DNA from: Komagataeibacter sp. FXV3
GTDB lineage: Bacteria; Pseudomonadota; Alphaproteobacteria; Acetobacterales; Acetobacteraceae
Length of the DNA stretch: 62,826 nucleotides
Direction of reading: 5' to 3'
NCBI RefSeq assembly: GCF_015155755.1
Contig: NZ_VWPI01000162.1
Coordinates: forward strand, 1-62,826
The notes under the pieces were generated by a model. That model ran no database searches. It was not told the DNA's origin and was given only the letters and a program-made list of their open reading frames with translations. Below are positions 58,996 to 62,826 of this stretch, piece by piece. How positions within the stretch are numbered: position 1 is the stretch's first letter; each line of letters opens with the position of its first letter. A program made the position numbers and the translations under genes.

Positions 58996-59472
58996 TCAGC
59001 CGCGCCACAGATGGCCGGGCATGGCGTCATAATGCTGGGTCAGGAAATCCAGCAGAAGCGCCAGCACGCTGCCCATATGCCGGGGGTCGTAGTGGACATG
59101 GCTGGCTATTTCATTCAGCGGCTGGTTGTTGATCATGGCGGCGATCAGGATCCGCTCGTAGCGGTTGCCGATGATGTCGTGAATATACCTGTAACGGTTG
59201 ATTGACCCCATGCGCCTGTTCAGCGGTCGCGCGGACAGACCCGGTGATGTCCGGTCCACCAGATACGGGTCTTCCTGTCCCATTACGCCAATCCGGTAAT
59301 CCGTGGCCCAGAACCGGGCCGCCGCCACATGGTGTGCCATGAGGATGCCACTGTGCTGCAGCGCGTCGATCAGGGCAGGTACGGGTGTCGCCCATTCACT
59401 GGTCCCGTCATGAACGGTTGTGGGGGCGGACAGGATAGCGGGACCGTCAGCGGGCAAAGGGCTCACTTTCAT
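58996..59472 (-). CDS. Hypothetical protein, helical, possibly HTH-containing
   Basis: A 158-residue protein I do not recognise. Two helical parts stand out: IDALQHSGILMAHHVAAARFWATDYRIG near 35-62 and YERILIAAMINNQPLNEIASHVHYDPRHMGSVLALLLDFL near 104-143, the latter shaped like a helix-turn-helix (LNEIASHVHYDPRHMGSVL). The layout recalls DUF6456-type proteins of alphaproteobacteria, but weakly. Upstream on the same strand lie a strong terminator and a Fur box, so it may have its own promoter in the 110 bases after the terminator. Confidence 0.55.
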   Translation of the reverse strand: MKVSPLPADGPAILSAPTTVHDGTSEWATPVPALIDALQHSGILMAHHVAAARFWATDYRIGVMGQEDPYLVDRTSPGLSARPLNRRMGSINRYRYIHDIIGNRYERILIAAMINNQPLNEIASHVHYDPRHMGSVLALLLDFLTQHYDAMPGHLWRG

Positions 59473-59588: not shown

Positions 59589-59625
59589 AAAAAAACGGCA
59601 TCACCCGGGTTGCGGGCGATGCCGT
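59589..59625 (-). terminator. Strong intrinsic terminator on the - strand
   Basis: ACGGCATC / GATGCCGT outer arms, one wobble pair, CCCG / CGGG inner arms and a 5-base loop, followed in the - direction by seven T. No gene ends just before it on that strand, which is why a small RNA or a leader attenuator is suspected. Confidence 0.8.
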
Positions 59626-59686
59626 AAGGTTCCGTGGACAAGTTGGGAAATCGACGGTTGGGAATCTGTCGGGCGACCCACGGGTG
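59589..59686 (-). ncRNA. Candidate Fur-controlled small RNA
   Basis: On the - strand a promoter-like TTGATA (59716-59721), 17 bases, TATTAA (59693-59698) overlaps a perfect Fur box. About 100 bases on, an intrinsic terminator (stem 59595-59625, 13 bp with one wobble, then seven T at 59589-59595) ends the putative transcript. The body, about 59626-59686, contains two CCCAAC segments likely to be single-stranded. No start codon with a ribosome binding site is seen in it. The layout is that of RyhB-type iron-repressed RNAs; expression is not known. Confidence 0.5.
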
Positions 59687-59695
59687 TTATGATTA

Positions 59696-59718
59696 ATAAT
59701 GATAATAATTATCATTAT
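59696..59718. promoter_or_regulatory. Fur box, perfect palindrome
   Basis: A perfect 23-base palindrome centred on A59707 containing TGATAAT-A-ATTATCA, the 7-1-7 Fur consensus, without a mismatch. It overlaps a TATCAT -10-like element (59710-59715) for the ThDP enzyme gene on the + strand and a TTGATA/TATTAA pair on the - strand, so Fur would repress in both directions. Confidence 0.85.
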
Positions 59719-59815
59719 CAAGATAAAAATGGCATCCGTCCTGACCGTCCCATGGTGGACCCGATCCCGAAAACGTGGTGCGATGGCCGGACCGTCAATG
59801 CACGCAGAGGACAGC

Positions 59816-61516
59816 ATGGCCATTACACCGCTTGAGGTCGCAGCACGGCGGGCAGGGGGACGGCGGGGTGCCGATATCCTGCTGGAAATTCTGGAAAGTG
59901 AGGGGGTTCGCTATATTTTCGGCAATCCCGGCACAACGGAACTGCCCCTGATCGATGCGCTCCAGCGCCGTCCGGACCTGAACTATATCCTCGCCCTGCA
60001 GGAAGCGAGCGTGGTGGCCATGGCTGATGGTTACGCACAGGCGGCCGGGCGTCCCGGCTTCCTCAACCTGCATACGGCAGGGGGGCTGGGGCACGGCATG
60101 GGAAACCTGCTGAACGCCAGCGTATCACAGACGCCACTGGTGGTGACGGCAGGACAGCAGGACTCGCGGCATACGATTTCCGACCCGCTGCTGTTTGGCG
60201 ACCTGGTCAGTATCGCGACGCCTGCGGTCAAATGGGCGCAGGAAGTCCTGCATGCGGACCAGTTGCCGGTGCTGGTGCGGCGTGCCTTCAACGATTCGAT
60301 GGCGGCCCCGTCCGGGCCGGTTTTCCTGTCCCTGCCCATGGATGTGATGGAGGAACCCAGTGATGTCGATGTCGGTTCCCCATCCGTCATCAACCGTGAA
60401 TCCATAGCGGGCGGCCTGCCGGAACTGGCGCGCGCGCTGGCTGGCATCACGCCGGGCAGGCTTGCGATCATCGCGGGCGATGAGGTGCATGGCGCAGATG
60501 CGGCGACGCAGGTGGCCGAAGTGGCCGGGATCCTTGGCGCGCCGGTTTATGGCGCGTCATGGCCATCGCGTATCCCGTTTGCAACGTCCTGCCCGTTATG
60601 GGCGGGCAACATGCCCACGCGCGCGACCGACATTGCGCGCAGGCTGGCGGATTATGATGCGATCTTCGCGCTGGGCGGCAAATCGCTGATTACCATCCTG
60701 TATTCCGAAGGCTCACCCGTGCCGCCGGGATGCGCGGTCTATCAGGTTTCGGCCGATGTACGTGACCTGGGCCGCACATTCCAGACACCGCTTTCGCTGG
60801 TGGGCAATATCCGCGCGTCGCTTGATGTGCTTATTCCGCTGCTGCAGCAGGCGACACAGCCCCGCCGGGCCGAATTCAATGCGGCCCGCGCACGTGTCAC
60901 CGCCGCCCGGGCCAGCAGGCGCGCGGAGGCGGAAATGCTGGTTGCCCGACATCGTGATGATCCGGTCATCGCCCCCTGCGTTGCCGCCCATGAGGCCGTG
61001 CGAGCCATTGGCCCGCGGGTCGCGATCGTGGATGAAGCGATTGCAACATCCTCCTACACACGCATGTTCCTCGATAGTGACTGGGCTGCGCAATATTCCT
61101 TCCTGCGCGGTGGCGCGCTGGGCTGGGGCATGCCTGCGGCGGTCGGGGCGTCGCTGGGTCTGGGGCGTGAGCCTGTCGTCTGCCTGGTGGGGGACGGGGC
61201 GGCCCTGTATTCTCCACAGGCTTTATGGACGGCTGCGCATGAACGGCTGCCGGTCACCTTCGTGGTGATGAACAACCGCGAATATAATGTGCTGAAGGGG
61301 TTCATGCGCGGACAGACGCATTATGTTTCCGCGCGCGAGGGAAACTTCCTGGCAATGGACCTGTGCGATCCACCGGTCGACTATCAGGCCATGGCGACAT
61401 CCTATGGTCTGGAATCGCGCCTGATTACCCGTGCGGGTGACATTGCCCCAGCTATCGAGGCGGCAATGGCGTCCGGTCGTCCCAACCTGGTGGAAATCGT
61501 AATCAGCACGATCTAG
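59816..61516 (+). CDS. ThDP-dependent decarboxylase, benzoylformate decarboxylase-like
   Basis: A 567-residue thiamine diphosphate enzyme closest in motif to benzoylformate decarboxylase (MdlC): FGNPGTTELP (MdlC has GNPGSNELP, so its S26 is T40 here), ILALQEASVVAMADGYAQ with E63, NLHTAGGLGHGMGN with H86, and the cofactor motif from GDG at 459-461 to NN about 487. It may decarboxylate a 2-oxo acid; the substrate is not known. ATG at 59816 is chosen after AGAGG; an open frame continues upstream into the Fur box without similarity. The Fur box 98 bases before it predicts induction by iron shortage. Confidence 0.85.
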   Translation: MAITPLEVAARRAGGRRGADILLEILESEGVRYIFGNPGTTELPLIDALQRRPDLNYILALQEASVVAMADGYAQAAGRPGFLNLHTAGGLGHGMGNLLNASVSQTPLVVTAGQQDSRHTISDPLLFGDLVSIATPAVKWAQEVLHADQLPVLVRRAFNDSMAAPSGPVFLSLPMDVMEEPSDVDVGSPSVINRESIAGGLPELARALAGITPGRLAIIAGDEVHGADAATQVAEVAGILGAPVYGASWPSRIPFATSCPLWAGNMPTRATDIARRLADYDAIFALGGKSLITILYSEGSPVPPGCAVYQVSADVRDLGRTFQTPLSLVGNIRASLDVLIPLLQQATQPRRAEFNAARARVTAARASRRAEAEMLVARHRDDPVIAPCVAAHEAVRAIGPRVAIVDEAIATSSYTRMFLDSDWAAQYSFLRGGALGWGMPAAVGASLGLGREPVVCLVGDGAALYSPQALWTAAHERLPVTFVVMNNREYNVLKGFMRGQTHYVSAREGNFLAMDLCDPPVDYQAMATSYGLESRLITRAGDIAPAIEAAMASGRPNLVEIVISTI

Positions 61517-62320: not shown

Positions 62321-62812
62321 ATGCATGCTGCAACCCTGTCCATGGATTACGACCATCCGGACTGCCCCCCTGTCCTGCGGCGGATCCGGGTGCAGGCCCC
62401 GTTTATCTATGGGCTGACCAATTATGTTGCGGCTGCCCTCAGCGCCAATGTGCTGCTGGCGGTGGGGGCGGCGCCAGCCATCGGGGCGGCGCCGGGCTGG
62501 CCGGCCGGTTTCGGGCGGCTGGCCGGGGCAATGTGGGTCAATGCGGCGGGGCTGATCAACTGCACGGCAGATGACATGCTGAATGCCGTGAATGCAGCGA
62601 ATGCCGGTCATGTGCCATGGGTGCTGGATCCGGTGGCCATGGGGGCGGGCGTGGGAGAATACGACGCCATCATTCGCACCCTGAAAGCCAAGGGGCCAGC
62701 CGTGGTGCGGGGGAATGCCAGTGAGATCATGGCACTGGCCGGTGGCGCCGCAACAGCACGGGGCGTGGAAACCACGGCTTCAATCGCGCAGGCAGTGCCA
62801 ATGGGACAGGAA
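62321..62812 (+). CDS. thiM: Hydroxyethylthiazole kinase (partial, cut by contig end)
   Basis: The first 164 residues of ThiM, which phosphorylates 4-methyl-5-hydroxyethylthiazole in thiamine salvage. GLTNYVAAALSANVLLAVGAAP, VNAAGLIN, WVLDPVAMGAGVGEY and VVRGNASEIMALAGG are family motifs. AAGGAG lies about 10 bases before the ATG. The frame runs on to 62826, but the last 14 bases match a Tn5 adapter, so genuine sequence probably ends near 62812. No TPP riboswitch is seen upstream. Confidence 0.88.
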
Positions 62813-62826
62813 CTGTCTCTTATACA
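62813..62826 (+). other. Probable Tn5/Nextera adapter remnant
   Basis: CTGTCTCTTATACA equals the first 14 bases of the 19-base Tn5 mosaic end used in transposase library kits. It stands exactly at the window edge and replaces expected thiM codons. Confidence 0.85.

Follow-up and report, generated by a model that had tools for sequence, protein, structure and literature searches.

A locus on the minus strand of the window (the whole stretch of 62,826 nucleotides of Komagataeibacter sp. FXV3 DNA that was analyzed) is, by sequence comparison, a real conserved RNA gene beyond what chance would give, and its product is probably a trans-acting, Fur-repressed, iron-sparing small RNA (sRNA), RyhB-like in action and belonging to a separate RNA family. 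The sequence-only reading of this DNA had taken the locus for a RyhB-like, iron-repressed sRNA, and genus-wide conservation together with compensatory changes in the wider family supports that proposal. When iron is sufficient, Fe-Fur on the palindrome in the promoter spacer would block transcription, as the box suggests, and in low iron the ~98-nt RNA would be made and ended by its intrinsic terminator. Base pairing is predicted between its UUCCCAACCGUCGAUUUCCCAAC stretch and the sdhC translation start region, and between the same stretch and the nuoA start region in Komagataeibacter and the genus g113, probably Novacetimonas. Such pairing would block ribosome entry, giving less complex II and complex I (sdhCDAB and nuo), and iron would be spared. 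The coordinates of all features are given in Table 1.

Table 1. Features of the RNA gene and its control region, in window positions
Feature	Positions	Strand	Description and basis
Promoter	59693-59721	minus	-35 TTGATA 59721-59716, 17-nt spacer, -10 TATTAA 59698-59693; read from the sequence, aligned in copy-A loci
Fur box	59696-59718		Perfect 11-1-11 AT palindrome centered on 59707; core 7-1-7 at 59700-59714; in promoter spacer
Putative small RNA, ~98 nt	59589-59686	minus	Start placed by -10 spacing, end by T run
5' domain	59632-59683	minus	Stem CCGUGGG (59683-59677)/UCCACGG (59638-59632) encloses hairpin CGAC (59671-59668)/GUCG (59655-59652)
First pairing segment, UUCCCAACC	59656-59664	minus	Mostly unpaired in fold
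Second pairing segment, GAUUUCCCAAC	59642-59652	minus	Strongly conserved in copy A
Predicted sdhC-pairing stretch, CGUCGAUUUCCC, 12 bp	59645-59656	minus	Unbroken-helix ranking and conservation across genera
Predicted nuoA-pairing stretch, UUCCCAACUUG, 11 bp	59639-59649	minus	Unbroken-helix ranking
Intrinsic terminator	59589-59625	minus	Stem-loop 59625-59595, T7 59595-59589

The palindrome TGATAAT-A-ATTATCA lies within the spacer of the minus-strand promoter. Both the perfect 7-1-7 Fur palindrome and the overlapping TTGATA-N17-TATTAA pair that had been read from the letters are present, with the extent of the palindrome having been understated. Allowing up to two mismatches, the 7-1-7 pattern matched twice in the window (one perfect match and one overlapping it), against an expectation of 0.04. 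The 19-bp Fur consensus, with up to three mismatches, gave four overlapping matches in the window, all at 59695-59719 and the best at 18/19, and none were obtained in 100 shuffles. Moreover, a Fur box overlapping the promoter, which is a trait of Fur-repressed iron-sparing sRNAs, was found at all 18 copy-A loci (described below) with 17 to 18 of the 19 positions matching. The TTGATA/TATTAA pair was absent from the output of a simple promoter scan, and the start at 59686 is therefore putative. A Fur-family protein is encoded in the genome (PF01475); in a second scan, the ferric uptake regulator came out on top, below the cut-off. Elsewhere in this genome (G000), a Fur-family regulator gene (L429:13793-14299, contig C151) has AT-rich TTATCATTTGCAATTA directly upstream of its called start, where autoregulation is possible, and the gene of a TonB-dependent heme/hemoglobin-type receptor (L341:960-3278, contig C148) has a Fur-like box just before its start.

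At the sequence level, the locus has the form of a free-standing short RNA with an intrinsic terminator, a trait of the sRNA class. The strong terminator with seven U claimed about 100 bases on was recovered, with a stem of 13 pairs (9 G-C) and a loop of 5, followed by TTTTTTT. Folding of the 98-nt RNA gave -36.8 kcal/mol (z = -3.96), and none of 200 shuffles was as good. Two CCCAAC segments (59662-59657 and 59647-59642, minus strand) have unpaired probabilities of 0.83 to 0.97 per base, with 0.51 for the last base of the first segment. Between them, GUCG is paired in the RNA's own fold and must open for pairing with sdhC, since four bases of the sdhC stretch are paired in the free RNA.

Covariation was assessed on 51 copies from the wider family (E up to 1e-6), a set that replaced one of 68 matches containing look-alikes and reverse-strand matches. 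Both-sided changes occurred in 13 of the 24 pairs. The outer stem was paired in 99.4% of cells, with both-sided changes in 5/7 pairs, and the terminator stem had them in 8/12 pairs; the inner hairpin was 94.9% paired, with no both-sided changes. The covariation score was 0.396 versus 0.191 in shuffles (0/500 as high; slid controls, 0.02 to 0.11), on an alignment that had been fitted to the model and so favours the structure. Further pair types, as a measure of covariation, were unremarkable (123/500 shuffles). In addition, the aligned RNAs of the copy-A loci differ in length by one to a few bases, which disfavours a conserved reading frame.

A DNA search of 100 genomes, own included, revealed the element at one syntenic place (copy A) in 18 of 19 Komagataeibacter genomes, again counting the own genome; in the exception, G005, copy A was not found and copy B is present. 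The element of G011 is 96% identical to the own one. At each of the 18 loci, genes for a TPP enzyme, a hypothetical protein and glucokinase surround the RNA. In the alignment of these loci the flanks drift, and the Fur box, the core, both CCC segments and the terminator are kept, so the conservation of box, terminator and CCCAAC segments that had been proposed as a check was borne out in 18/19 genomes of the genus. A hydroxyethylthiazole kinase gene (thiM, 62321-62826) at the end of the window is truncated by the contig end.

Candidate targets were ranked in the own draft genome (3.6 Mb) over 60 sampled 20-kb stretches and the window, in which genes had been called crudely; the full sample comprised 1161 start regions, nuoA having been added by hand. 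The unbroken-helix score was adopted after sdhC had been noticed in the list produced by a score that allows loops. In the first 40 stretches plus the window (698 start regions), the loop-allowing score placed the RNA's own locus 1st, odhB 2nd and sdhC 40th, and unbroken helices placed a GmrSD restriction gene 1st and sdhC 2nd. Across the full sample, sdhC ranked 1st by unbroken helix (12 pairs, -21.5 kcal/mol), with 1/5000 shuffled cores as good and 0/2000 in a separate shuffle run. By the same measure, nuoA was 4th (-19.9; 10/5000 shuffled cores as good) and odhB 15th (-16.3; 216/5000), with the GmrSD gene 2nd (-21.2) and a doubtful 74-aa open reading frame 3rd. The loop-allowing score ranked odhB 6th, sdhC 26th and nuoA 29th of the 1161. 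Thus, odhB, sdhC and nuoA stand high by either score, and the first place of sdhC depends on the score. The GmrSD-type gene (L355:11589-13778, contig C142) carries a 12- to 13-bp complement to the RNA core upstream, which is probably due to chance.

SdhC is supported by both NCBIfam and Pfam, and SdhD-, SdhA- and SdhB-like translations were read by eye near its gene; OdhB passes its NCBIfam cut-off, and NuoA passes the Pfam cut-off and falls below those of NCBIfam. A search for complement patterns close to ATG in the own genome returned nuoA and cioA among the matches at plausible starts. The bd-type oxidase gene cioA was rejected, its TTGGGAAA being kept in only 2/15 Komagataeibacter loci (G000 and G012). 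An exact long complement, TTGGGAAATC, occurred at 17 places in five genomes, several of which were the RNA itself, and gave no convincing start region common to the genomes. The odhB motif TTGGGAA is present in 15/15 Komagataeibacter and lost in 3/3 g113 and 4/4 Gluconacetobacter genomes, so odhB is a possible genus-level target.

The sites were compared across 30 genomes, with sdhC matched in 28 (all except G031 and G047) and nuoA in 26. For sdhC, GGGAAATTGACG was found in all 18 genomes of Komagataeibacter and g113 taken together, and GGGAAATCGACG, which complements the RNA core perfectly, in 4/4 Gluconacetobacter, so that the site is present in all 22 sampled genomes of these three genera. 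In G027, the RNA has CGUCGAUCCCCCG and sdhC has CGGGGGACGACG, which pair with one bulge. In the five other genomes (G048, G040, G026, G043 and G055), unbroken helices between sdhC and the own-genome core were no stronger than -12.6, and the DNA search did not find the RNA in any of them; another species of G048's genus (G174) has a diverged RNA. With loops allowed, the contrast between RNA-present and RNA-absent sdhC is weaker: G055, which yielded no RNA, has an sdhC start scoring -20.9 with the own core, versus -20.5 for the own sdhC, and the G048 sdhC start reached -21.1 with the RNA of G027 and -20.4 with one from Gluconacetobacter. As for nuoA, AACAGGTTGGGA is kept in 15/15 Komagataeibacter genomes and GGTTGGGAA in 14, with G001 one base off; the g113 site, GGTTGGGGAC, occurs in 3/3 genomes, and the site is absent from 4/4 Gluconacetobacter, from G027 and from three other genomes with a nuoA match.

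Matching changes were observed on the two sides of the predicted helices. The first segment of the g113 RNAs is UUCCCCAACC and g113 nuoA has GGTTGGGGA; CCCC replaces UCCC in 4/4 g113 RNA loci, and GGGG is present in 3/3 g113 nuoA. Likewise, UCCCCCG in the G027 RNA corresponds to CGGGGGA in G027 sdhC. When RNAs and targets were cross-paired, G027 sdhC paired best with its own RNA (-26.6 versus -16.6 to -21.2) and g113 nuoA leaders with g113 RNAs. Against an own-genus preference, the best partner of Komagataeibacter nuoA was a Gluconacetobacter RNA, and that of Gluconacetobacter sdhC a Komagataeibacter RNA. The G027 sdhC pairing taken alone is not significant (119/2000 shuffled cores as good), and a further caveat is that the sdhC leader is conserved over its whole ~50 nt. 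Overall, these sdhC and nuoA comparisons are good but not conclusive evidence for pairing. The earlier suggestion that the CCCAAC segments bind targets gains support, with reservations: the predicted sdhC and nuoA pairing is conserved, but the first rank depends on the score, and loop-allowing scores are less favourable.

It is also conceivable, though unlikely, that the element is a Fur-regulated sRNA whose real targets are others, with purine-rich ribosome-binding sites accounting for the matches at sdhC and nuoA. C-rich segments find partners at many G-rich starts, unrelated genes have helices about as strong, and many of the pattern matches fetched from the own genome were not at a convincing gene start, all of which fits such an explanation. 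However, part of the sdhC helix (TTGACG/TCGACG) does not resemble a Shine-Dalgarno sequence, and in the genera sampled the unbroken sdhC site goes together with the RNA.

The sequence-only reading had passed over a family of paralogues, one form of which directly precedes a gene. Covariance models built from 18 and from 51 copies matched 35 and 38 of 397 Acetobacteraceae genomes, respectively, and inspection retained 32 of the 38 as true members (14 Komagataeibacter, 12 Gluconacetobacter, 4 g113, 1 g10 [G027] and 1 g31 [G174]). Five of the remaining six (all except G204, E 0.01) were inspected and held terminator look-alikes. Weak model matches in G202, G366, G139, G422, G130:C67, G288, G311, G211, G416 and G006:C49 were rejected as apparent terminators lacking the box or core. 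In loci L445, L446 and L447 (of G288, G311 and G211), similar sequence containing CCCAAT/CCCGAT precedes GC-rich hairpins and a T run, with no Fur box seen; these are possibly another, unrelated small RNA or terminator. A class-wide search with model R1 matched 1/385 genomes, namely, the own genome.

Paralogues occur in Komagataeibacter, Gluconacetobacter and three further Acetobacteraceae genera (L002 [G000:C74:18927-19069], L024-L026, L032, L046-L062 and L117-L121), beside dps and/or just before a gene for a protein of ~325 aa, and they carry the same core. In 11/13 Komagataeibacter genomes examined, copy B lies between divergent dps and the ~325-aa gene, as the leader of the latter; dps was not found beside copy B in G000 (within the 20 kb looked at) or in G005. 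In the own copy B (C74), the terminator has decayed. Of the 12 Gluconacetobacter genomes, 5 carry two copies, one beside dps and the other preceding the ~325-aa gene. The ~325-aa family gave no Pfam match above cut-off (two members scanned), and no PDB entry matched the model of one member (pLDDT 68) at E up to 0.001. The second segment is altered in G027, in G174 and in the second G423 copy, and at its edges in other copy-B RNAs; the divergent g31 member (L443, G174:C122:1616-1728), which precedes a ~325-aa gene, keeps UCCCAACCGUC and has lost the second segment. Upstream of 25 examined family loci other than copy A, where a TTGCAATT...GCAA type of sequence is common, the classical Fur box reached only 8 to 15 of 19 positions, which makes iron control of these loci less sure.

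Copy B bears on a further, improbable alternative, namely, that the element is a cis-acting leader or attenuator in which a signal sensed by the 5' domain sets, through the hairpin, whether transcription continues into the downstream gene. For copy B such a role is possible, as it lies ~30 nt before the ~325-aa gene and its T run is often poor, and a conserved loop in a covarying stem followed by a terminator has the look of a riboswitch as well. Copy A, on the other hand, has no fixed place in the leader of one gene: its terminator is present at 18/18 loci, and the downstream hypothetical gene (58996-59472 in the own genome) begins about 74 to 533 nt away, making it unlikely to be led by copy A and favouring the earlier view of an sRNA over one of a leader of that gene. 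Nor do the Gluconacetobacter dps-side copies L046-L050, L052 and L054 have a ~325-aa gene in their 3-kb loci, no Rfam riboswitch was found at cut-off, and complementarity to sdhC and nuoA would not be expected from leader function alone. Highly improbable, finally, is a Fur box that serves the divergent TPP-enzyme gene (59819-61516, plus strand) with the minus-strand RNA incidental, for although the palindrome is directionless and ~100 nt before that gene, it overlaps a minus-strand promoter behind which a covarying RNA and its terminator are conserved, and the same core recurs in paralogues that have other neighbours; the box may be common to both.

Returning to the trans-acting sRNA, we tentatively propose, with slightly less than even confidence, that a Fur-dependent iron-sparing sRNA arose within the acetic acid bacteria, independently of RyhB, PrrF, NrrF and FsrA. 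It would have begun as the 5' leader of the ~325-aa gene facing dps and been copied out as a stand-alone gene (on the dps side in Gluconacetobacter and at a new site, with a textbook Fur box, in Komagataeibacter), its core co-evolving with sdhC and nuoA. The finding suggests how such RNAs may arise from leaders, and it offers a concrete RNA, a regulator site, a pairing stretch and two candidate targets in a lineage used for vinegar and bacterial cellulose. If true, it would represent an iron-sparing sRNA of the Fur regulon in Alphaproteobacteria, of which none was reported in the literature searched, with an origin traceable to an mRNA leader.

Among the matches listed from the open-access literature, including the passages of PMC11475020, PMC13361655 and PMC8102297, no Fur-controlled iron-sparing sRNA was described in Acetobacteraceae; as far as these searches go, the RNA gene is undescribed. 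In Caulobacter, sdh and nuo genes go down under iron limitation as well as in a fur mutant, a drop behind which an iron-responsive sRNA yet to be identified was suspected (PMC3751524); a later paper states that no sRNA had been identified in the Caulobacter Fur regulon (PMC11005374). This question becomes testable in another alphaproteobacterial lineage.

No Rfam family reached its gathering score for the RNA. The RyhB covariance model had no match in the region with E up to 10, and PrrF (RF00444) scored 19.6 bits versus a gathering score of 90, with the alignment mainly on the Fur box and T tail; by these models, the RNA is a member of neither family. In Escherichia coli, RyhB has a Fur-repressed promoter, a similar size and an intrinsic terminator; PrrF of Pseudomonas has a Fur box over its promoter, and FsrA of Bacillus is C-rich. 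FsrA, likened here by description, belongs to another phylum. Staphylococcal IsrR, also likened by description and from another phylum, shares promoter Fur boxes, single-stranded C-rich regions and iron-enzyme mRNA targets (PMC9410917) and has three C-rich regions versus the two here. RusT of Caulobacter crescentus is likewise an alphaproteobacterial sRNA induced by iron starvation but its authors found no Fur site in its promoter (PMC11005374). PrrF comes in two copies, as do copies A and B here. NrrF of Neisseria meningitidis, from which our RNA is set apart by the lack of an Rfam match to such families and otherwise by description, is a Fur-controlled sRNA repressing sdhCDAB (PMC5586341). 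RyhB differs in its core, its clade and the missing covariance-model match, and resembles the RNA described here in that sdh genes are among its targets (PMC2964681).
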